Positions 24,950-52,488 of a stretch of 52,813 nucleotides of DNA are shown here, in pieces. A program made the position numbers and the translations under genes. The first letter of the stretch is position 1. Each line of letters starts with the position of its first letter. Under the pieces are notes generated by a model, which was not told the DNA's origin, did not search any database, and worked only from the letters and a program-made list of their open reading frames with translations. The stretch is from a virus: positions 1-52,813 of the IMG/VR virus record IMGVR_UViG_3300042308_001282. One strand, given 5' to 3'.

Positions 24950-25024
24950 TTCCCAACGGGTTCTGTGGTATTCTTAAGGAGTGGTTGAGAGACCACCAGC
25001 ACCTTGACAATCTAAACCTTTAAT

Positions 25025-25097
25025 GGGTCTGTTGCATAGCGGCTAATGCACCTGGCTTTTAACCAGTATATCGTGGGTTCGAGTCCCACCAGACCCA
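25025..25097 (+). tRNA. tRNA-Lys (UUU)
   Basis: Acceptor GGGTCTG/CAGACCC, discriminator A, T arm GTGGG-TTCGAGT-CCCAC, anticodon loop CTTTTAA. First gene of the tRNA array; CCA is not encoded. Confidence 0.93.
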
Positions 25098-25135
25098 TTG
25101 ACCGCTACAGTTCGGTCATTAAACATAAACTGTTC

Positions 25136-25217
25136 GGGTAGGTGTCCGAGTGGTTAATGGAGGAGGTCTGTAAAACCTCTGGCTCTGCCTACGGGGGTTC
25201 AAATCCCTCCCTGCCCA
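25136..25217 (+). tRNA. tRNA-Tyr (GUA)
   Basis: Acceptor GGGTAGG/CCTGCCC, anticodon loop CTGTAAA in stem GAGGT/ACCTC, long class II variable arm typical of bacterial tRNA-Tyr. Confidence 0.92.
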
Positions 25218-25221
25218 CCTT

Positions 25222-25295
25222 GACCCATTAGTGTAGCGGTTTATCACGCCACCCTGTCACGGTGGAGATCACGGGTTCAAATCCCGTATGGGTCG
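25222..25295 (+). tRNA. tRNA-Asp (GUC)
   Basis: Acceptor GACCCAT/ATGGGTC, discriminator G, anticodon loop CTGTCAC in stem CCACC/GGTGG. Confidence 0.94.
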
Positions 25296-25343
25296 TTGCT
25301 ACGCTGCCTGTGGAGTATTCCTCCTTGGTGGTTGTAGCATCAT

Positions 25344-25415
25344 GGTCCTATCGTCTAGTGGTGAGGACATCACTCTTTCACAGTGAAGACACGGGTTCAA
25401 ATCCCGTTAGGACTA
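25344..25415 (+). tRNA. tRNA-Glu (UUC)
   Basis: Anticodon loop CTTTCAC in stem TCACT/AGTGA; acceptor GGTCCTA/TAGGACT with a terminal G-U pair; T arm ACGGG/CCCGT. Confidence 0.92.
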
Positions 25416-25418
25416 CCA

Positions 25419-25495
25419 CGGAATGTAGCGCAGTTTGGTAGCGCATCTGTTTTGGGAACAGAGGGTCGCAGGTTCGAATCCTGTCATTCCGACCA
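25419..25495 (+). tRNA. tRNA-Pro (UGG), copy 1
   Basis: Acceptor CGGAATG/CATTCCG, discriminator A, encoded CCA, anticodon loop TTTGGGA. It directly abuts the next tRNA. A second Pro(UGG) gene lies at 29260. Confidence 0.94.
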
Positions 25496-25568
25496 GGAAA
25501 CATAGCTTAGTTGGTAAAGCATTCGACTGATAATCGAAAGAGCACTGGTTCGAGTCCAGTTGTTTCCA
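25496..25568 (+). tRNA. tRNA-Ile (GAU)
   Basis: Acceptor GGAAACA/TGTTTCC, anticodon loop CTGATAA in stem TTCGA/TCGAA, no spacer from tRNA-Pro. Confidence 0.93.
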
Positions 25569-25591
25569 TTGTTGCCTTAAGGCAACATTAA

Positions 25592-25681
25592 GGAAGTGTG
25601 GCAGAGAGGTCTAATGCAGTGGATTGCTAATCCGCCGATGTTCTTTAAGGGCATCCGTTGGTTCGAATCCAACCACTTCCG
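25592..25681 (+). tRNA. tRNA-Ser (GCU)
   Basis: Class II with long variable arm; acceptor GGAAGTG/CACTTCC, discriminator G, anticodon loop TTGCTAA. The following spacer 25682-25768 has hairpins (AGCAAG/CTTGCT; CTCTT/AAGAG inside CTGAC/GTCAG) but no gene. Confidence 0.92.
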
Positions 25682-25768
25682 TAGGACTCCAGCAAGGTGC
25701 TTGCTAGGATATAAAAGACTGACGCCTCCCTCTTCAGAAAGAGTAACCAGCAGGTCAGCGTCCACTTT

Positions 25769-25840
25769 GGCAGTGTAGTTCAGTGGTAGAACAAGAGATT
25801 CATACCCTCTATGTCGGTAGTTCAATTCTACCCACTGCCT
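25769..25840 (+). tRNA. tRNA with CAU anticodon (Met or Ile2), copy 1
   Basis: Acceptor GGCAGTG/CACTGCC, anticodon loop TTCATAC. One of three CAU genes. Lysidine-modified Ile(CAU) cannot be told from Met by sequence alone here. Confidence 0.88.
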
Positions 25841-25841
25841 T

Positions 25842-25913
25842 GTGTCGTTAGCCTAGTGGTTAAGGCAGTAGTTTGTGGAACTACCTAGATGGGTTCAATT
25901 CCCATACGACACC
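25842..25913 (+). tRNA. tRNA-His (GUG)
   Basis: Acceptor GTGTCGT/ACGACAC, discriminator C as usual for His, anticodon loop TTGTGGA in stem GTAGT/ACTAC. The -1 base in the gene is T, not the usual G. Confidence 0.93.
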
Positions 25914-25915
25914 CC

Positions 25916-25987
25916 GCCCTTATAGCTCAGTGGTAGAGCAACTCACTAGTAATGAGTAGGTCGTTGGTTCAAATCCGACTGAGGGCT
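25916..25987 (+). tRNA. tRNA-Thr (AGU), rare A34 anticodon
   Basis: Acceptor GCCCTTA/TGAGGGC, anticodon stem ACTCA/TGAGT, loop CTAGTAA giving AGU. A34 in Thr tRNA is rare in bacteria. Confidence 0.9.
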
Positions 25988-26022
25988 CTCAACTATCTGA
26001 AATTTCCAGATAGTTCATACAA

Positions 26023-26094
26023 TCCAGAATCGACTAACTGGCAGGTCAGCACCCTTTGAAGGTGTACGTCTAGGTTCGAATCCTAGTTCTGGAA
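26023..26094 (+). tRNA. tRNA-Gln (UUG)
   Basis: Acceptor TCCAGAA/TTCTGGA, anticodon loop CTTTGAA in stem GCACC/GGTGT. Preceded by a perfect 9-bp spacer hairpin at 25991-26015. Confidence 0.92.
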
Positions 26095-26112
26095 TTGCCC
26101 CTAATGGGGCAA

Positions 26113-26284
26113 CAATCTGTCCAACACTGGGGTTCGACTCCCCACATCTCCACTCTTGGGGATGAACTGGCATTCGACTGGGCAGAGGGTTCTGAGAATA
26201 AATCTCAACAACATCGTATCTTTCCGCAGAACTGCTGTTGCCGTTTGAGCAATAGCACTTTGAGCGAACTGGGGAGTAATCCCT
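26113..26284 (+). ncRNA. ssrA: Circularly permuted (two-piece) tmRNA
   Basis: The acceptor piece comes first: TCTGTCC, T arm CTGGGG-TTCGACT-CCCCA, CATCTCC and discriminator A at 26152. After only five bases the coding piece begins with GGGGATG at 26158. GGGGATG pairs with CATCTCC (7 bp, with G3-U70, the alanine identity pair), and GGGCAGA pairs with TCTGTCC (P2). The conserved GGCATTCGAC lies in the D-like arm. The tag frame at 26207-26248 reads NNIVSFRRTAVAV then TGA, resembling the marine cyanobacterial ANNIVxFxR...APVAA tag; the resume position reads CTC instead of an Ala codon. A GGGGAGTAATCCC-T5 hairpin ends it. Confidence 0.87.
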
Positions 26285-26290
26285 TTTTCT

Positions 26291-26365
26291 GTTGGGTTGG
26301 TGCAATTGGTAGCATCTCGGTCTCCAAAACCGAAGATCAGAGTTCAAGTCTCTGGCCCTTCGCCA
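26291..26365 (+). tRNA. tRNA-Trp (CCA)
   Basis: Anticodon loop CTCCAAA in stem TCGGT/ACCGA, T arm CAGAG/CTCTG, encoded CCA. The acceptor GTTGGGT/GCCCTTC has two U-U mismatches (pairs 2 and 3), so function or editing is uncertain. Confidence 0.82.
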
Positions 26366-26366
26366 T

Positions 26367-26443
26367 ACCCTCTTAACTCAGTGGACCAGAGTGCTTGGCT
26401 ACGAACCAAGAAGTCGCAAGTTCGAATCTTGCAGAGGGTGCCA
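26367..26443 (+). tRNA. tRNA-Arg (ACG)
   Basis: Acceptor ACCCTCT/AGAGGGT, discriminator G, encoded CCA, anticodon loop CTACGAA in stem CTTGG/CCAAG. Confidence 0.94.
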
Positions 26444-26480
26444 TTTAAATCTAAATAGCAACAAGAGGTGTGATAGGAAA

Positions 26481-26951
26481 ATGGAATTAGTAGAACCACA
26501 CTCAACTATACTAGTTTTGAATAGTTCTTACGAGCCACTACACTTCACTAATTGGAAACGTGCAATAGTTTTACTTTTCAAACAGAAAGCAAAACTTATC
26601 TCCAAGAGAATTATTCGTTTGGTGAATTATGTGAAAATTCCATTTTCCTATGGAAGATCAGATTACCCGACGAGAGCACTCATCTATAAACGGGATGATT
26701 ATGAGTGTCAGTATTGTGAGTCTAAAAATGACCTTACAATTGACCACATAATTCCCCGCTCAAAAGGTGGTAAAGATACTTGGGATAATTTAGTTGCTTG
26801 TTGCACATCTTGTAATCTCAAAAAAGGAAATAAACTTCTTAAAGAGACTAATATGATCTTAAAGAGTATTCCGCAAGCACCAATTAGTAGAGTAATACTT
26901 GATATTCAGAAAACAAAAGTTTCTGAATGGAAGGACTATTTGTTTCAGTGA
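26481..26951 (+). CDS. HNH endonuclease
   Basis: 156 residues from ATG 26481; an upstream in-frame start would lie inside the tRNA-Arg gene. The N-terminus STILVLNSSYEPLHFTNWKR is shared by a widespread bacterial HNH family. The nuclease core is YECQYCESKNDLTIDHIIPR, then SKGGKDTWDNLVACC..CN, with two CxxC zinc pairs and the His-Asn-His set. CTAAATAG (26451-26458) could be a late promoter. It is inserted between tRNA genes, a common place for mobile nucleases, but lacks NUMOD repeats. Confidence 0.88.
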   Translation: MELVEPHSTILVLNSSYEPLHFTNWKRAIVLLFKQKAKLISKRIIRLVNYVKIPFSYGRSDYPTRALIYKRDDYECQYCESKNDLTIDHIIPRSKGGKDTWDNLVACCTSCNLKKGNKLLKETNMILKSIPQAPISRVILDIQKTKVSEWKDYLFQ

Positions 26952-26955
26952 GAGA

Positions 26956-26984
26956 TTGACAAATTTTTGAAAATACCCTAATAT
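26956..26984 (+). promoter_or_regulatory. Sigma70 promoter for downstream tRNAs
   Basis: TTGACA (26956-26961), 17 bp, TAATAT (26979-26984), starting just after the HNH stop codon. Confidence 0.8.
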
Positions 26985-27046
26985 ATAAAGACAGAGGTTA
27001 AGTCCCTGTTACATCCTTATGAGGTGTATCACACTTAATCCATCAT

Positions 27047-27121
27047 CGTGGGGAAGTGTAATGGTTGCACAGAAGTCTCATAAGCTTCAGGTAGGTGGTT
27101 CAACTCCATCCCCCGCCTCCA
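27047..27121 (+). tRNA. tRNA with CAU anticodon, copy 2 (unpaired first base)
   Basis: Anticodon loop CTCATAA in stem GAAGT/GCTTC, encoded CCA. The acceptor CGTGGGG/CCCCGCC has a C1-C72 mismatch, reminiscent of initiator tRNAs, but it lacks the three G-C pairs of initiator anticodon stems. Confidence 0.82.
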
Positions 27122-27194
27122 GCCCTTGTATTCCAATGGTAGAGAAGGTGGACTTAGAATCCATACAGTGTAAGTTCGAATCTTACCAGGGGCA
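27122..27194 (+). tRNA. tRNA-Leu (UAG) with short variable loop
   Basis: Acceptor GCCCTTG/CAGGGGC, anticodon loop CTTAGAA in stem GTGGA/TCCAT, T arm GTAAG/CTTAC. The variable region is only about five bases, whereas bacterial tRNA-Leu is normally class II. Confidence 0.82.
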
Positions 27195-27195
27195 C

Positions 27196-27224
27196 TTGAC
27201 AATCAAACTTAAATAGTTTATAAT
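27196..27224 (+). promoter_or_regulatory. Perfect sigma70 promoter
   Basis: TTGACA (27196-27201), 17 bp, TATAAT (27219-27224), immediately ahead of tRNA-Gly. Confidence 0.85.
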
Positions 27225-27234
27225 TGTCTTATAA

Positions 27235-27306
27235 GCGGAGTTAGTTCAGCGGTAGAACGCTATCCTTCCAAGTTAGATGTCGTCGGTTCGATTCCGATAC
27301 TCCGCT
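27235..27306 (+). tRNA. tRNA-Gly (UCC)
   Basis: Acceptor GCGGAGT/ACTCCGC, anticodon loop CTTCCAA. The anticodon stem has one T-T mismatch. A GAACC-TTCG-GGTTC hairpin follows. Confidence 0.9.
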
Positions 27307-27358
27307 CTGAACCTTCGGGTTCTATAAACACACAAACACACTTCATAGGAGAATACTT

Positions 27359-27556
27359 ATGACGCCTTATCAACTTAGATTTGAAGTTTTTAAGCAAGCT
27401 TATGCGATGCTTTCGGATAATTATCATGTAGAGTTTGCAAAAGCAGAATGCTCTAATGGTGGCAAATTGCCGGATGGATTTGATTTAAAATATCCAACTC
27501 TTTCTGATGTTCTTGGGCACGCAGAAACGATTAATGATTTTGTAAGTTCTAAGTAA
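27359..27556 (+). CDS. Conserved small cyanophage protein (65 aa)
   Basis: Starts MTPYQLRFEVFKQAYAMLSD under an ATAGGAGA ribosome site. It is helical, with a C-terminal YPTLSDVLGHAETINDFV segment. It lies between tRNA genes and is likely co-transcribed from the promoter at 27196. Function unknown. Confidence 0.7.
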   Translation: MTPYQLRFEVFKQAYAMLSDNYHVEFAKAECSNGGKLPDGFDLKYPTLSDVLGHAETINDFVSSK

Positions 27557-27564
27557 TAGAACAT

Positions 27565-27636
27565 TCCCCTGTGGCGCAGCGGTAGCGCGAGAAACTGTTA
27601 ATTTCCAGGTCACAAGTTCGAATCTTGTCGGGGGAG
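27565..27636 (+). tRNA. tRNA-Asn (GUU)
   Basis: Acceptor TCCCCTG/CGGGGGA, discriminator G, anticodon loop CTGTTAA. Confidence 0.93.
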
Positions 27637-27655
27637 TTGCTATCAGTAGCAAACT

Positions 27656-27733
27656 GTAGGTGCCAAATACCCCTTCTGGTTAATGCTGGAAGAAGTAAAG
27701 AGTGTGGACATAGGTAAAGTCCACAACACCTAC
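27656..27733 (+). ncRNA. Structured tRNA-sized RNA of unknown function
   Basis: A 7-bp closing stem GTAGGTG (27656-27662) / CACCTAC (27727-27733). A 7-bp stem-loop TGTGGAC/GTCCACA (27703-27725) is stacked beside its 3' strand, like an acceptor-T arm pair. There is no T-loop consensus and no recognisable anticodon arm. It lies between tRNA-Asn and a degenerate tRNA. Confidence 0.45.
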
Positions 27734-27738
27734 CACAA

Positions 27739-27810
27739 CCTCTGGTAGTCTATTGGTAAGGACGGGCGGATAACGCACTTGGAAACTAGGTTCGATTCCT
27801 AGACAGAGGT
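27739..27810 (+). tRNA. tRNA-like gene with degenerate anticodon arm
   Basis: Acceptor CCTCTGG/ACAGAGG (last pair mismatched), D arm GTC...GAC, T arm CTAGG-TTCGATT-CCTAG. The anticodon arm GGGCG-GATAACG-CACTT pairs poorly and lacks U33, so no anticodon can be assigned. It is either a decayed tRNA or one with an odd loop. Confidence 0.6.
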
Positions 27811-27813
27811 AAC

Positions 27814-27886
27814 GGGAGCATAGCTCAGCGGTAGCAGCGTCTGCTTTACACGCAGAATGTCGGGGGTTCGAATCCCTCTGCTCCCA
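27814..27886 (+). tRNA. tRNA-Val (UAC)
   Basis: Acceptor GGGAGCA/TGCTCCC, anticodon loop TTTACAC in stem TCTGC/GCAGA. Confidence 0.94.
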
Positions 27887-27890
27887 CTTG

Positions 27891-27898
27891 CATAAATA
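27891..27898 (+). promoter_or_regulatory. Late promoter CATAAATA
   Basis: Late-type motif 15 bp before the dps ATG. Confidence 0.6.
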
Positions 27899-27913
27899 TT
27901 GAAAAAGAGTATA

Positions 27914-28348
27914 ATGGAAAAACTGTTTAAACTTTTAAGTGATGCTCAGTCATCACTTTTTGTTTTATTTCATAAAACTTGGGCATTTCATTGGAATGTA
28001 GTTGGTGAAGATTTCACACAACTACATCAACTCTTTGGTGGACAGTATGAGACTATGTTTGAAGAGATTGATCGTCTTTCTGAACATATGAGATACTTAA
28101 ATGTAAAACCATTAAGTTCTCTTTCAAGAATGCTTGAAGTGACTCAAATCAAAGAGTCTGCAAGTTCAACTGGAGCAAAAGAAATGCTTCAGGAACTTCT
28201 GGATAATAACACCAAGTTTTGTGAGTTAATGGCAGAGATTTCGGAAGAAGCAGAAGAACAAAAGTCTTATGCAACTGCCAATCTAGTTCAAGACTTAATG
28301 GAATCTCATGGTAAATTTGTATGGATGTTGAGATCACATTTACAGTGA
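27914..28348 (+). CDS. dps: Dps/ferritin-like protein
   Basis: 144 residues from ATG 27914. The Dps ferroxidase signature is present: KTWAFHWNVVGEDFTQLHQL (His about 30, with further acidic/His ligands) and QYETMFEEIDRLSEHMRYL. A C-terminal LMESHGKFVWMLRSHLQ helix follows. Dps proteins form 12-mers that oxidise iron with peroxide and may coat DNA. A short late-type promoter precedes it. A role in peroxide or iron stress during infection, or packaging, is plausible. Confidence 0.88.
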   Translation: MEKLFKLLSDAQSSLFVLFHKTWAFHWNVVGEDFTQLHQLFGGQYETMFEEIDRLSEHMRYLNVKPLSSLSRMLEVTQIKESASSTGAKEMLQELLDNNTKFCELMAEISEEAEEQKSYATANLVQDLMESHGKFVWMLRSHLQ

Positions 28349-28363
28349 TAAGGATGAAGAAAA

Positions 28364-28615
28364 ATGATTTCAATAAGATGTAAAGATTGCAATAAAGAAT
28401 TAACAGGACACCCATCAAAAACAGTTACTTGTGGGTGTCCTAATATGGCAACAATTCGTGGAGACAAGATTTCGGCACTTGACTTATCTCGAATTGTCAT
28501 GCTAAACTCTCTAAAAGAAAATCAAAACAAAAGTGTGCTTACTTCTCAAGACATTGCTTGGCAAGAAGCACGTCGTCAACGTAAAGTAAGACGACTTGAT
28601 TTTGAAGTCCGTTGA
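28364..28615 (+). CDS. Zinc-ribbon-like small protein
   Basis: 83 residues, starting MISIRCKDCNKELTGHPSKT, then VTCGCPNMATIRGDKI. The two CxxC/CxC groups suggest zinc binding. The C-terminal half is basic and helical (WQEARRQRKVRRLDFEVR). It follows dps by 15 bp and is probably co-transcribed. Function unknown. Confidence 0.7.
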   Translation: MISIRCKDCNKELTGHPSKTVTCGCPNMATIRGDKISALDLSRIVMLNSLKENQNKSVLTSQDIAWQEARRQRKVRRLDFEVR

Positions 28616-28626
28616 GGACTTAATTT

Positions 28627-28713
28627 GGAAGGTCAATCCGATTGGCGACGGAACCGCTCTTGAAAAGCGTTGAGGTGTTAAAGCCCTTGGGAGTTCGACT
28701 CTCCCACCTTCCG
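28627..28713 (+). tRNA. tRNA-Ser (UGA)
   Basis: Class II; acceptor GGAAGGT/ACCTTCC, discriminator G, anticodon loop CTTGAAA, long variable arm. Confidence 0.93.
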
Positions 28714-28826
28714 TTTAGAAAAGTTACAAATTTAACAATTTCTTCAACAGTGTTAAGATATCAACACAAAAAGTTGACTGCGAAATACCTGTGATTAGTA
28801 TATAGTAGTATCACGGGGACGAACCG

Positions 28827-28976
28827 ATGGATCAACATACTTACGAAAATTGGGTGAAAATCAAAGAAACATTTGAAACTTCTGGTAATATTGATAATAT
28901 GTTTTACAAAAGAGCCGTTCAAATTGTTAAAACAAGAGTCGATCCTCTTGCAAAGTTTTTGGGAGATGAGAAGTGA
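28827..28976 (+). CDS. Small conserved protein (49 aa)
   Basis: ATG 28827 (MDQHTYENWVKIKETFETSG) to TGA 28974-28976, with ACGGGGAC upstream as ribosome site. A weak promoter (TTGACT 28774, TATATA 28799) precedes it in 28714-28826. Its TGA overlaps the ATG of the next gene. Function unknown. Confidence 0.65.
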   Translation: MDQHTYENWVKIKETFETSGNIDNMFYKRAVQIVKTRVDPLAKFLGDEK

Positions 28977-29143
28977 TGGAACCTGGGGATGAATTTATTA
29001 GTAGGTCTGAAGTGCAGGAGATGATCGACCAAGCTATTGACAAACACAATAAAACTGCTACAATAATATCAGCAGCAATCGGTTCGGTTCTGCTCTTCTT
29101 CTATGCCCACGGCGTCATTGCTATTATAGATAGAGTACAATGA
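28976..29143 (+). CDS. Small membrane protein (55 aa)
   Basis: Begins MEPGDEFISRSEVQEMIDQA, then one transmembrane helix (TATIISAAIGSVLLFFYAHG) and a short tail. It is coupled by TGATG upstream and overlaps the next gene (ATGA). Function unknown. Confidence 0.65.
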   Translation: MEPGDEFISRSEVQEMIDQAIDKHNKTATIISAAIGSVLLFFYAHGVIAIIDRVQ

Positions 29144-29259
29144 GACACTTTGCTCATTTAATTTTGGATAATCAGGTTTCGCTTTTTATCCTTTGCTACC
29201 TCTTGACAATGGTTCCAATCATGGGTATAATGATTATACACCAAACAAAAGAAAAATAA
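29140..29259 (+). CDS. Tiny membrane protein (39 aa)
   Basis: ATG 29140 to TAA 29257-29259: a hydrophobic peptide starting MRHFAHLILDNQVSLFILCY with a helix to about residue 33. A perfect sigma70 promoter lies within its coding sequence. The overlap coupling supports translation. Confidence 0.5.
   Translation: MRHFAHLILDNQVSLFILCYLLTMVPIMGIMIIHQTKEK
29203..29231 (+). promoter_or_regulatory. Perfect sigma70 promoter
   Basis: TTGACA (29203-29208), 17 bp, TATAAT (29226-29231), driving tRNA-Pro at 29260 from inside the preceding small gene. Confidence 0.8.
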
Positions 29260-29335
29260 CGGAGTATCGCCTAACTTGGTCATGGCACCTGCTTTGGGAG
29301 CAGGAATAATTTCGGTTCAAATCCGAATACTCCGA
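29260..29335 (+). tRNA. tRNA-Pro (UGG), copy 2
   Basis: Acceptor CGGAGTA/TACTCCG, discriminator A, anticodon loop TTTGGGA in stem CCTGC/GCAGG. It has the same anticodon as the gene at 25419 but a clearly different body, so it is not a recent duplicate. Confidence 0.92.
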
Positions 29336-29351
29336 TCATAAAAATAACTTT

Positions 29352-29579
29352 ATGAAAATGCAAGAACTAGAAGAACTTCAATCCTTTACAGTCGAAGAGT
29401 TTCAATCTGATTTTGACAATCTAATACAAAGAGTAGAAAACGGTGAATCATTTATCATACGAGATGGAAATAATAGCGCAGTGATAGTTCCTTACAACGA
29501 AACCATAAAGTACGCAATAGAATCAACTGTGGATGACGAACTGATACGTCTTCACACAGACCACGAAGAAGGTTCTTGA
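29352..29579 (+). CDS. Phd/YefM-like antitoxin without adjacent toxin
   Basis: 75 residues. The segment SFTVEEFQSDFDNLIQRVEN, then GESFIIRDGNNSAVIVPYNE, is the Phd/YefM pattern: an N-terminal DNA-binding dimer domain with x.F...l..v..Ge.fii.....aViv. The C-terminus is acidic (toxin-binding type). The next element is a promoter and a tRNA, so no partner toxin is encoded. It could neutralise a host toxin or act as a repressor. Confidence 0.75.
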   Translation: MKMQELEELQSFTVEEFQSDFDNLIQRVENGESFIIRDGNNSAVIVPYNETIKYAIESTVDDELIRLHTDHEEGS

Positions 29580-29604
29580 CACAGAGTTCCAGATCCTCTA
29601 TAAT
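29576..29604 (+). promoter_or_regulatory. Perfect sigma70 promoter
   Basis: TTGACA (29576-29581, overlapping the antitoxin stop), 17 bp, TATAAT (29599-29604), serving the last two tRNAs. Confidence 0.82.
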
Positions 29605-29618
29605 AGATTCAGATTCAA

Positions 29619-29706
29619 GCGAGTGAGACTTGGTAGTCAGAGGGCACTTATAACGCCTTTCCGCCAGATTAGCGGCTTTGACCTGGTTCGAATCCAGGCA
29701 CTCGTA
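29619..29706 (+). tRNA. Class II tRNA, anticodon apparently UAU
   Basis: Acceptor GCGAGTG/CACTCGT, variable arm with stem CCGC/GCGG, T arm CCTGG/CCAGG. The best anticodon loop is CTTATAA (UAU, Ile AUA) with an A-C mismatch closing it. A long variable arm fits Leu or Ser, not Ile, so identity is open. Confidence 0.72.
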
Positions 29707-29734
29707 TTGTTATTCGTGATTTGCGAATAGCGAA

Positions 29735-29809
29735 TGCCCGTTTGGCCCTCTGGTGAAGGCAATCTGCTCATAACAGATAGAAGGTCGGATCGTAACCGAC
29801 AACGGGCAT
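29735..29809 (+). tRNA. tRNA with CAU anticodon, copy 3
   Basis: Acceptor TGCCCGT/ACGGGCA, anticodon loop CTCATAA in stem ATCTG/CAGAT. The T loop is ATCGTAA instead of TTCRANN. It is followed by T6 and is the last of the array. Confidence 0.85.
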
Positions 29810-31045: not shown

Positions 31046-31182
31046 AACTAAGTGGTGGAGCCTCAGAAAGGACCCTCTAGGGTTTATTGCTTCCTTTAAA
31101 GAGCAATTGGTGCGGATGGGGATCTCTCCTGCCTGGTTTCCAATTTCCAGTCAAAGAATTGGTGGCGAGACTGAGTTTACCT
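31046..31182 (+). other. Structured intergenic spacer, no gene seen
   Basis: Contains small inverted repeats (GACCCTCTAGGGT; TTGCT...AGCAA; AATTGG repeated with CCAATT) and leads into a strong terminator. It could be a small RNA or an untranslated 3' region. No tRNA or coding signal was found. Confidence 0.3.
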
Positions 31183-49334: not shown

Positions 49335-49505
49335 AAATAGGTAAACAAATGTTACGAGTCTCTCATAACTCTTAACATTGTTAAACACCCATTAACCGAG
49401 ACCTATGGGGTGTATAAATTACGTCTCTCATATCTTCTCTAGGGGTGAGAAGAAATATTGAACCCTGTTCGTCCCCACGAACTCTTACTTAACCCTTTTT
49501 CAAAT

Positions 49506-51879
49506 ATGACTGCTTCAATCGCTTCACGCCGTTCTGGCGAAAACCTCTGGGAACAATTCTGTTCCTGGGTAACTTCAACCGATAATAGACTGTATGTTGG
49601 TTGGTTCGGAGTCCTTATGATTCCTTGCCTTCTTGCTGCTACAACTTGTTTTATTATCGCTTTCATCGGTGCTCCCCCTGTAGACATAGACGGTATCCGT
49701 GAACCCGTTGCTGGTTCACTAATGTATGGAAACAACATCATCTCTGGTGCTGTTATTCCAAGTTCTAATGCCATTGGATTGCATTTTTACAGCATCTGGG
49801 ATGCTGCTTCTCTTGATGAGTGGCTTTATAAATAATATTGGGTCACTTTAAATCGGGTGAACTGCTGGAAAGCTAAGTTCTTTATGAAACACAAACATCA
49901 CCTTACTCCAAAATATCTTGGTGGTTCTAACGAATCCCAAAATCTTGTAGAAGTTTCTACAACTCAACACGCTATGTTTCATTATTGTAACTGGCGTCTT
50001 TGGGGAAACGAAGAAGATAAGATTGCTTGGAAAGCACTTGCAGGATACTCTAAAAAAGAGGAAATAATTCATCAAGTTATTTCTCTTGCAGGTAAAAGAG
50101 GTGGTAAGGTTGCAAAAGAAAGCGGACAACTTCGGTCTGCTGCTCTTAAACAACCAAGAAGTGTAAGGCAAAAGATTGGTAAAAATCTTATCAACTATGC
50201 CTACAAAAATCCAAAGAATGCAACACAAGAAACTCTTACTAATAGAAAATACAGTAAAGTATTTCACATTTATGAAAAACTAACTGAAAGGACTATTGGT
50301 AATCATCTTGGGGATGTAGTTTTTAATCCAGAAGAAGATAAAACACTCAAAACTGTTTGTTCTATTATTCTGGAAAAATATGGGGTAAAAGTTTATCCTT
50401 CACATCTTAATAGTGTTGCTAATGGAAATAGACTTTTAACAAGTGGTATTTCTTGTAGTTGGATTTTAGAGAATATGCCAATCAGCATCCAAGCCACAGA
50501 CGATACTTCTGTGGAAGGTTCAGAGACTACTGGGTTCAACAAGCGTGTTGAGTAATACCAGATTAGCGCCCGACATCTTATAAAAAATAAGATGAAGATA
50601 TAGTCCAGTCCATATGGAAACATATGGTTCCCCCGACTGCTATAATGGGGGTCCTTTCCAACTTGTTGTCTTCCACTTCCTCATCGGCATCTACTGCTAT
50701 ATGGGTCGTGAATGGGAACTCTCTTACCGTCTAGGTATGCGCCCTTGGATTATGGTTGCTTATAGCGCACCTGTTGCTGCTGCGAGTGCTGTATTCCTGG
50801 TCTATCCTTTCGGTCAAGGTTCTTTCTCTGATGCGATGCCTCTTGGTATCTCTGGTACATTCAACTACATGCTTGTATTCCAGGCAGAGCACAACATCCT
50901 GATGCACCCCTTCCACATGCTTGGAGTTGCTGGTGTCTTCGGTGGTTCTCTTTTCTCTGCTATGCACGGATCTCTTGTCACCTCTAGTCTTGTACGTGAG
51001 ACTACAGAAAATGAGTCACAGAACTACGGATACAAGTTCGGACAAGAAGAAGAAACCTACAACATTGTAGCTGCTCATGGTTATTTTGGTCGCCTTATCT
51101 TCCAATATGCTTCCTTCAATAACTCACGTTCACTTCACTTCTTCCTTGCTGCTTGGCCCGTTGTAGGCATCTGGTTCACTGCTCTTGGTGTTTCTACAAT
51201 GGCTTTTAACCTCAATCGTCGGGGTCCCGTCTTAGCAATTTGACGGTAAACATCGGGTGAACTGCTGGAAGCCCTCCATAAATGGGTAATCAGCATCCAA
51301 GTCCAAAGTACACTTTGGAAAGGTTCAGAGACTACCTGAGGAGTTCAGTCTCCTTAATAACAGGAATAAGTGCCCGACATCCTAAATGGATGAAGATATA
51401 GTCCACTCCTTAAAGATGGTAAATTTAAGGGTTCAGTGCAACGGTTTTAATTTCAATCAGTCCATCATTGACTCACAAGGTCGTGTCCTTAATACTTGGG
51501 CAGATGTACTGAATCGTGCAGGTCTCGGAATGGAGGTCATGCATGAACGGAACGCTAGATTTGTTGGTGTTCTTGCTTAGGAATAAGCATTAGTAAAATC
51601 GGGTTAAACGGGGAAACTCTCTATGAGACAATCCCGTACCAAGTCAGAAAGGGTTTAAGTTTTCTGAAAGGTCTAACGACTAGATGGTGAGTCCCAACAA
51701 TAATCCATCCACGAATGCCCGACATCCAGAACGGATGAAGAGATAGTCTGAACTTACTAGTGATAGTAAGAAGTAGAGGATAAAGAACCACTACGATAAC
51801 AAAATTGCACAACTTCCCACTTGACCTTGCCGCAGCAGAAGCAACACCAGTTGCTCTTACTGCTCCCGCAATCGGTTGA
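49506..51879 (+). CDS. psbA: Photosystem II D1 protein, gene split by three group I introns
   Basis: Exons 49506-49825, 50640-51212, 51439-51556 and 51808-51879 join in frame to 1083 nt, 360 residues plus stop, the normal D1 length. Joined codons read EWL|YNGGPF, FNL|NGFNF and ERNA|HNFPLD, matching D1. Each upstream exon ends in T and each intron in G, as group I splicing requires. [11 protein letters not shown] carries Glu at the D1 position 130 equivalent, the high-light type. Unusual residues FYSIWDAAS replace FYPIWEAAS. Phage D1 maintains photosystem II during infection. The psbA-psbD order is kept. Confidence 0.95.
49826..50639 (+). ncRNA. Group I intron 1 in psbA, HNH gene inside
   Basis: 814 nt. 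The internal guide GGTCACT (49841-49847) pairs with exon end AGTGGCT including the U-G splice pair. Core blocks are TCGGGTGAACTGCTGGAA (49853), AATCAGCATCCAAG (50480), GGTTCAGAGACTAC (50517) and GATGAAGATATAGTCCA (about 50591). A CATATG-GAAA-CATATG hairpin lies near the 3' end. Confidence 0.92.
49884..50555 (+). CDS. Intron-encoded HNH homing endonuclease
   Basis: 223 residues from ATG 49884; a GTG at 49857 falls in the ribozyme 5' core. HNH core [20 protein letters not shown], then [20 protein letters not shown]; Lys/Gly-rich middle, and a C-terminal [23 protein letters not shown]-binding-like segment. The last 25 codons (from [11 protein letters not shown]) overlap the ribozyme core. Related to the free-standing gene at 29857. 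Confidence 0.88.
   Translation: MKHKHHLTPKYLGGSNESQNLVEVSTTQHAMFHYCNWRLWGNEEDKIAWKALAGYSKKEEIIHQVISLAGKRGGKVAKESGQLRSAALKQPRSVRQKIGKNLINYAYKNPKNATQETLTNRKYSKVFHIYEKLTERTIGNHLGDVVFNPEEDKTLKTVCSIILEKYGVKVYPSHLNSVANGNRLLTSGISCSWILENMPISIQATDDTSVEGSETTGFNKRVE
51213..51438 (+). ncRNA. Group I intron 2 in psbA (no ORF)
   Basis: 226 nt, ending in G 51438. It shares the same core blocks in the same order as intron 1: ATCGGGTGAACTGCTGGAA (51252), AATCAGCATCCAAG, GGTTCAGAGACTAC and GATGAAGATATAGTCCA. Clearly a sibling of intron 1 without an endonuclease gene. The guide pairing with exon end AACCT is short (GGGGT). Confidence 0.9.
51557..51807 (+). ncRNA. Group I intron 3 in psbA (no ORF, different lineage)
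   Basis: 251 nt. Guide GGTGTTC (51566-51572) pairs with exon end GAACGCT with the terminal U-G pair. The core differs from introns 1 and 2: ACAATCCCGTACCAAGTCAG, GGTCTAACGACTAG and GATGAAGAGATAGTCTGAAC. It sits just before the D1 codon for the Mn-cluster His (H337 equivalent). Confidence 0.9.
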
Positions 51880-51966: not shown

Positions 51967-52488
51967 ATGAGAACCACGAAGATTTGTAGAACCTGCACAC
52001 AAGAACTTCCTATCTCTGATTTTAGAGAAGGTCGTAGAAGATGTATTAGGTGTGAAGAAAAAACCTATGCAGAAAATTGGGCAAGTAAAACTCACATTAC
52101 TTGCAACAAGTGTGGTTTAGAAAAACTTATTTCTGAATATTATAAAGGTCATAAGAGGTGTAAGGATTGTTACAGTAAAGACTATAAAGACAAAAAACCT
52201 TCTTATGATGATAAGAAAGACTATATGTTAAAGTATACTTATGGGCAGGATTTTGGATTAACTGAATATCAAAATCTTTTGCAGGAACAGAATGAAGTAT
52301 GTGCTATTTGTTTAAATCCAAATACTAATGGTAGGAAGGATAGTAATAATCTTTATGTAGACCACGATCATAATACTGGAAAGGTTCGTGGATTGTTGTG
52401 TAGTAACTGCAATAGAATGCTTGGACTAGTAGGAGATAATATCGGCACACTAACTAATGCAGTTAAATACTTACAAAAGCACCAATAA
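51967..52488 (+). CDS. Endonuclease VII-like homing endonuclease next to psbA
   Basis: 173 residues. N-terminal zinc-binding pairs (CRTCTQEL, CIRCEE, CNKCGLEK, CKDCYS) precede the Endo VII/His-Me core CAICLNPNTNGRKDS...YVDHDHNTGKVRGLLCSNCNRML, with DHDH catalytic residues. GLVGDNIGTLTNAVKYLQKH is the family's C-terminal helix. A free-standing nuclease just 3' of psbA is reminiscent of F-CphI of phage S-PM2, which targets psbA intron sites. Confidence 0.88.
   Translation: MRTTKICRTCTQELPISDFREGRRRCIRCEEKTYAENWASKTHITCNKCGLEKLISEYYKGHKRCKDCYSKDYKDKKPSYDDKKDYMLKYTYGQDFGLTEYQNLLQEQNEVCAICLNPNTNGRKDSNNLYVDHDHNTGKVRGLLCSNCNRMLGLVGDNIGTLTNAVKYLQKHQ

Follow-up and report, generated by a model that had tools for sequence, protein, structure and literature searches.

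A permuted, cyanobacterial-type tmRNA gene with a putative Leu resume codon and an AVAV tag end in the tRNA array of a cyanophage fragment

The tmRNA element and its setting

The window, that is, the whole stretch of DNA analysed here, is IMG/VR record IMGVR_UViG_3300042308_001282 (52,813 nt), a fragment and not a complete genome. Its ORF families include a family-B DNA polymerase, a UvsX-like recombinase, ribonucleotide reductase subunits, psbA and a nucleotide-sugar epimerase, and its top sequence matches are T4-like Synechococcus phages. The window is a T4-like fragment of a cyanophage (Kyanoviridae-like). Positions 25024-29809 are occupied by a tRNA array with 22 tRNA genes, as called by ARAGORN on the whole window, and the tmRNA element sits within this array, between tRNA-Gln and tRNA-Trp. 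The array also contains an HNH endonuclease ORF (26391-26951), directly 3′ of the tmRNA/tRNA-Trp/tRNA-Arg group.

The element spans about 26095-26285 on the plus strand, and its gene order is permuted, with the acceptor half followed by a spacer and then by the coding half. The preliminary description placed it at 26113-26284; the core does lie there, but the true span is wider and includes a 5′ hairpin and a 3′ terminator-like hairpin. Its parts are as follows.

26095..26112, plus strand: 5′ hairpin TTGCCCC-TAAT-GGGGCAA, which leads the acceptor half (MFE fold; arms co-vary in relatives)
26116..26122, plus strand: P2 3′ strand TCTGTCC, partner of 26180-26186 (sequence, fold, relatives)
26128..26144, plus strand: T-arm TGGGG-TTCGACT-CCCCA (Rfam alignment; compensatory changes at 5/5 pairs in relatives)
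26145..26152, plus strand: 3′ acceptor strand CATCTCC (26145-26151) and discriminator A73 (26152) (sequence, Rfam alignment)
26153..26157, plus strand: spacer (intervening sequence) CTCTT, 5 nt, between the halves (sequence)
26158..26164, plus strand: 5′ acceptor strand GGGGATG, bearing G3 of G3-U70 (sequence, Rfam alignment, relatives)
26165..26179, plus strand: D-loop-like AACTGGCATTCGACT (Rfam alignment; TCGAC invariant in lineage alignment A1)
26180..26186, plus strand: P2 5′ strand GGGCAGA (fold, relatives)
26187..26203, plus strand: short linker of 17 nt where pseudoknot 1 would stand (sequence, fold)
26204..26248, plus strand: tag frame CTC...GTT TGA, with the CTC resume codon, LNNIVSFRRTAVAV and stop TGA (translation)
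26234..26256, plus strand: stop-codon hairpin GCTGTTGC-CGTTTGA-GCAATAGC (MFE fold, relatives)
26270..26285, plus strand: hairpin followed by a T run, terminator-like, closing the coding half (sequence, folds)

The features of a tRNA-like domain are present, namely a 7-bp acceptor stem, a 5-bp T-arm with a TTCGANT loop, a D-like loop without an anticodon arm, and P2. The encoded acceptor end stops at A73 and lacks CCA. It had been claimed that the acceptor half lies directly upstream of the coding half, five bases apart, and the position of CTCTT bears this out. Likewise, the pairings proposed earlier for the acceptor stem (GGGGATG/CATCTCC, with G3-U70) and for P2 (GGGCAGA/TCTGTCC) are all found in the sequence and are standard in relatives.

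Infernal-type models and ARAGORN had been suggested as checks. RF01851 (cyano_tmRNA) gives a single match in the record, at 26079-26285, that covers the full model (1-288) with 45.2 bits and an E-value of 8.5e-13, while RF04321 (tmRNA_permuted) scores 40.4 bits (E 7.8e-7). Both scores fall under the curated gathering cut-offs, 70 and 47 bits, respectively, which are annotation thresholds and not a biological feature; nevertheless, the E-values are strong. Thus, the models recover the element, although below their cut-offs. ARAGORN, by contrast, failed as a check, as it called the 22 tRNAs of the window and no tmRNA. The unconstrained fold of 26093-26285 has an energy of -71.3 kcal/mol, compared with -52.7 for shuffled sequences (z -4.4), and none of 200 shuffles equalled it. 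This fold recovers the 5′ hairpin, P2, the T-arm, the acceptor stem, the stop-codon hairpin and the 3′ hairpin, and chance hairpins are ruled out by the E-values and the shuffles. Together with covariation in relatives (see below), the gene order, the Rfam matches and the fold uphold the identification of a phage-encoded, circularly permuted tmRNA of the cyanobacterial type, and it is practically certain that the element is a real tmRNA gene.

Relatives, covariation and the tag frame

Relatives were gathered with a pattern for the acceptor/coding junction and with tag patterns, which gave at least several hundred viral loci. The lineage with Leu at the resume position was retrieved with the frame CTC-AAY-AAY-ATH-GT, the pattern itself requiring AAAT ahead of CTC. 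Among the matches listed, 36 loci have this frame and 33 of them are complete and genuine; the others are cut by a contig end (L128 and L140) or are a chance match (L129). The tRNA-like half and the permuted gene order are present in all 33, which lie on other viral contigs. In scans of other sequence sets, the junction pattern matched only two proteobacterial MAGs among genome contigs, and the plasmid scan gave no cyanobacterial match.

Among the matches listed, the Leu lineage comprises 18 unique sequences, window included. The acceptor, T-arm and P2 pairs are all standard in every one of them, with two-sided (compensatory) changes at 15 of the 19 pairs. For instance, all seven P2 pairs are standard in 18/18 with up to four pair types per position, and the acceptor stem occurs as GGGGATG/CATCTCC, GGGGTAT/ATACTCC, GGGCCAT/ATGGTCC and GGGGCAT/ATGCTCC. 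In effect, the pairings whose disruption in relatives had been named beforehand as evidence against the tmRNA are intact. RNAalifold, applied to 17 sequences of the lineage, finds two-sided changes at 19 of 35 predicted pairs. The loci behind these covariation counts were chosen by tag motif and then by structural score, so the counts lean towards structured loci, a bias from which the figure of 33/33 is free. Since the acceptor strands of L126, L133 and L136 are off by one column in the MAFFT alignment A1, stem counts were taken field by field. The 5′ hairpin has changed on both arms in some relatives (TTACCTC/GAGGTAA in L023, TTGTCGC/GCGGCAA in L126). The stop-codon hairpin reads GCAACAGC in L041 and L136, a one-sided change that retains the pair, and has a shortened stem in L127.

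In a wider set of cyanophage-type tmRNAs, G3-U70 is present in 117 of 117 unambiguous unique sequences among the matches listed, in a search that was blind to pair 3-70, while the neighbouring acceptor pairs 4-7 vary freely. This constancy points to selection for alanine charging. None of the three loci without G3-U70 fits this structure, and they were set aside: L162 and L268 appear to match by chance, and L229 (tag ANNIVPFARKRSLVAA) could be a tmRNA of standard form, unsuited to the permuted template. The spacer between the halves ranges from about 4 to 90 nt in relatives and has no conserved letters, as would be expected for a sequence that is removed. ARAGORN also performs poorly on relatives, missing L011, L126, L127, L130, L134 and L136 and giving wrong tags for L033, L133 and L144.

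Some phage tmRNAs depart from the usual T-loop. Among the matches listed, nine unique ones have GGCAGTA in place of TTCGANT, together with a paired ATCGG/CCGAT stem; the carriers are L136 (8334-8511) and the L170/L279/L280 group. In L136, at the same positions, an acceptor half resembling those of the QTALV group is joined to a LNNIVSFRRTAVAV coding half, which suggests, from the sequence of this locus, that tmRNA halves may be exchanged between lineages.

The tag frame is short and has a hydrophobic C-terminus and an in-frame TGA. Translation gives the AVAV end that was reported for it, without Ala-Ala. Because LNNIVSFRRTAVAV is identical in 27 loci among the matches listed, neither CTC nor AVAV can be attributed to assembly or sequencing error. 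Variants in the Leu lineage are LNNIVSFRRTVVAV, LNNIVSFRRAAVAV, LNNIVKFERTSVAV, LNNIVSFTRQTVLV, LNNIVRFTRVRVVSAA and LNNIVRFERVAVAA; the last two end in Ala-Ala, so AVAV is not universal. The earlier placement of a Leu codon at the resume position also holds, as CTC is conserved in the lineage, the exact codon being assigned by homology and by the bases at -4 and -5. The Ala-type relatives closest to the element (L060 and S-CRM01) have GCA at this site, and the T(-5)A(-4) that precede CTC in the linker occupy the same places as U85-A86 of E. coli tmRNA, which set the tag frame there (PMC2481249). The reading frame is open upstream of CTC, and the resume codon proposed here is thus a putative one.

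The distance from the 5′ acceptor strand, where the coding half starts, to the resume codon is 43-46 nt in the Leu lineage versus 61-92 nt in Ala-resume cyanophage tmRNAs, for which reason pseudoknot 1 appears to be lost. The 17-nt linker is much shorter than the same region of relatives, and a 5-bp hairpin is predicted there instead. E. coli tmRNA tolerates the replacement of pseudoknot 1 with an unrelated sequence (PMC2481249). The predicted hairpin, TGAGA-ATAAA-TCTCA (window 26193-26207), covers CTC and is found in most of the lineage, with L130 and L133 lacking it; a helix at the resume site is thought to be inhibitory in E. coli (PMC2481249). Fixation of CTC through pairing with the GAGA upstream of it was considered and rejected, as the pairing is missing in those two loci. 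In long-gap relatives, the start of the tag is ambiguous and ARAGORN places it further upstream; consequently, tags were compared by their ends only.

Tag ends and their interpretation

Picocyanobacterial host tags are presumed to end in PVAA. Literature text searches with host tag strings gave no match, and no paper dealing with how phage tmRNA tags end was found in the literature searched, which mostly excludes subscription papers. Among the matches listed, there are 61 distinct cyanophage-type tags, and 48 of them have no Ala-Ala end: the ends include 13 Ala-Ala, 14 TA, 13 LV, 8 AV and 7 TV. The same junction scan also yielded phage tags of the alpha/beta type, which were picked by eye from its list with chance frames excluded; of these, 20 of 23 distinct tags end in Ala-Ala and the rest in VA (among the matches listed). 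The difference in Ala-Ala ends, 13/61 versus 20/23, has a Fisher p of 5e-8, a value that overstates the evidence because these tags are related (among the matches listed). As they are not independent samples, a count on a tree is safer. The tree, built without the spacer and the tag ends from a short alignment by a quick method, requires 13 switches between an Ala-Ala end and any other, at least five of them forced by well-supported branches. Judged from the tags and this tree, Ala-Ala has been lost repeatedly among cyanophage tags and hardly in alpha/beta-type phage tags. Nevertheless, 60 of the 61 have A or V in last place (among the matches listed). The terminal codons are GCC, GCT, GCA, GTT, GTA and GTC, and each of the three stops occurs; that an A/V end is kept with such varied codons and stops indicates that the peptide is under selection, as decay would not maintain it. 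Thus, cyanophage tag ends look changed yet constrained.

ClpXP takes the Ala-Ala end as its chief signal, and a change of either terminal Ala raises the KM for ClpXP (PMC7652416). In Synechocystis, degron strength follows the order LVA > AAV > ASV (PMC3446811), and AAV again proved the weaker of the tags in subsequent work (PMC9486961), although these reporter tags are E. coli-derived sequences that differ from the phage tag. The AVAV end is close to AAV, so the phage tag would probably be degraded more slowly than that of the host. By this analogy, it is on balance probable that AVAV makes a weaker degron in the host. The preliminary description had raised altered tag-directed proteolysis, an inference that gains comparative support from the many cyanophage tags without Ala-Ala and from the weaker V-ending reporters.

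The reading favoured here, which we consider likely, is a working permuted tmRNA that rescues ribosomes with host SmpB and carries a weakened, still constrained degron; activity in ribosome rescue, taken by itself, is very likely. The tmRNA would be transcribed as part of the tRNA array of the phage. The tRNA-processing enzymes of the host would then free two pieces, acceptor and coding, held together by the acceptor stem and P2, a cut that the permuted order and the variable spacers of relatives suggest. After addition of CCA to the acceptor end, host AlaRS would charge it via G3-U70 and, with host SmpB and EF-Tu, the tmRNA would enter ribosomes stalled on broken messages in infection. Ala and LNNIVSFRRTAVAV would be appended to the stalled protein, and the ribosome would terminate at TGA. 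Because the tag ends in AVAV and not in Ala-Ala, ClpXP should bind it more weakly, and ribosomes would be recycled while tagged proteins would decay more slowly than with the host tag, presumably to the benefit of the phage. No smpB was found in the 52.8-kb fragment, so host SmpB would have to accept the reduced RNA. For cyanophages as a group, it may tentatively be proposed that tags have been repeatedly rebuilt off Ala-Ala (AVAV, ALV, ATA, VTA, ATV, QTV, VSV) while still under selection, and that phage trans-translation would uncouple ribosome rescue from rapid proteolysis, or route tagged proteins to another protease, in infection.

Alternatively, this could be an ordinary tmRNA in ordinary trans-translation, in which AVAV would act in picocyanobacteria as a degron of full strength and the phage would supplement the host pool as it does with tRNAs. 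The conserved NNIVxF tag body, the almost invariable final A or V, the VAA end kept by several cyanophage tags and the location in a tRNA array all agree with this. However, there are several losses of Ala-Ala among cyanophage tags and hardly any among those of the alpha/beta type, and V-ending variants are weaker in Synechocystis; this alternative seems unlikely. A different role would be that of a decoy, which would block the host tmRNA by binding to SmpB, to AlaRS or to stalled ribosomes, as has been proposed for the tRNA-like-domain-only RNA of mycobacteriophage DS6A, also a phage tmRNA derivative, and molecules of this type inhibit tmRNA (PMC4131195, PMC11915505). The reduced form of the element, apparently without pseudoknot 1, would suit such a role. 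The DS6A RNA, however, has no tag frame, whereas in the element the tag frame, the stop-codon hairpin and the C-terminus are conserved at the amino-acid level, and a decoy would not need a tag; this role is therefore very unlikely.

It is also conceivable that the RNA stays uncut and uncharged, the 5-nt spacer forming a hairpin loop that caps the acceptor stem, as only five nucleotides follow A73 and CCA is not encoded. Nevertheless, spacers in relatives vary as removed sequence would, G3-U70 would not persist without charging, and processing into two pieces has been demonstrated by northern blot for the host tmRNA of Prochlorococcus (PMC1242208), all of which makes an uncut form highly improbable. 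Sub-threshold Rfam scores, the apparently missing pseudoknot 1 and the failure of ARAGORN might instead indicate a relic or pseudogene, taken from a host and drifting. Covariation disfavours this, with compensatory changes throughout and a strict G3-U70, and so do the same tag in 27 loci (among the matches listed) and the constrained tag ends; a relic is scarcely credible.

Known tmRNAs and other features of the window

The element resembles the cyanobacterial two-piece tmRNA (RF01851/RF04321) in having the acceptor half first, G3-U70, the T-arm, P2, the NNIVxF tag body and the 3′ hairpin. It differs in scoring under both cut-offs, in its Leu (CTC) instead of Ala resume codon, in its AVAV end and in a linker apparently without pseudoknot 1. 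The tmRNA of Synechococcus phage S-CRM01 was found here, record HQ615693 having no annotation for it. It is also permuted and located in a tRNA cluster, its acceptor half is alike in 39 of 40 bases, its tag body has FRRTAV as in the element, and CTTTGAGCGA follows the tag in both. By contrast, it keeps a longer pseudoknot-1 region, has an Ala resume codon, continues its tag to TSLVAAL, and scores above the two Rfam cut-offs (82.5 and 74.3 bits), neither of which the element reaches. At this locus (L002, 3001-3180), the tag overruns the window's stop position and ends one Leu past Val-Ala-Ala.

The tmRNAs of S-SSM7/S-SSM6a, S-CAM1, S-CAM3 and Sf-FS3 are likewise permuted and cyanobacterial-type, and several of their tags do not end in Ala-Ala (LVTA, LATA). 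They differ from the element in a long pseudoknot-1 region, an Ala resume codon and other tag ends, with VAA in S-CAM1 and S-CAM3. In the records of isolates S-CRM01, S-CAM1, S-CAM3, S-SSM7 and Sf-FS3, the tmRNAs are unannotated.

A survey published in 2022 with methylophage Melnitz reports tmRNA in 402 of 18,146 phage genomes, with two-piece forms accounting for 53 of 133 unique structures, 50 of those 53 being aquatic; in it, the tmRNAs of cyanophages cluster with those of cyanobacteria (PMC9004378). The element shares with these the presence of a permuted tmRNA in marine or aquatic phages. The tmRNA of Melnitz itself is of an alphaproteobacterial kind with a glutamine riboswitch, unlike the element, and the survey (PMC9004378) relied largely on ARAGORN, which misses or misreads the Leu-resume lineage. 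The tmRNA database, with 79 phage sequences, is also largely ARAGORN-based (PMC11915505). Since ARAGORN and the Rfam cut-offs miss it, the Leu-resume lineage is under-counted. Phage-borne permuted tmRNAs were already known; thus, the element is novel as a variant and not as a kind, and its unexpected part is the tag end. The pattern of tag ends makes the question of why phages carry tmRNA testable: with its own tmRNA, a phage may gain rescued ribosomes, while the tagged protein meets a fate that is weaker than usual or different. In addition, cyanophage tags form a natural set of degron variants for cyanobacteria, where such tags serve as tools.

Elsewhere in the window, a wcaG RNA (31078-31176) lies 5′ of the nucleotide-sugar epimerase gene and a PhotoRC-II RNA (49373-49466) lies 5′ of psbA. 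Three Rfam group I intron matches fall within 1.4 kb (50362-51770) around psbA (Photo_RC ORF 50614-51243), a gene that as many as three introns may interrupt, and an endonuclease VII ORF (51967-52488) lies 3′ of these matches.
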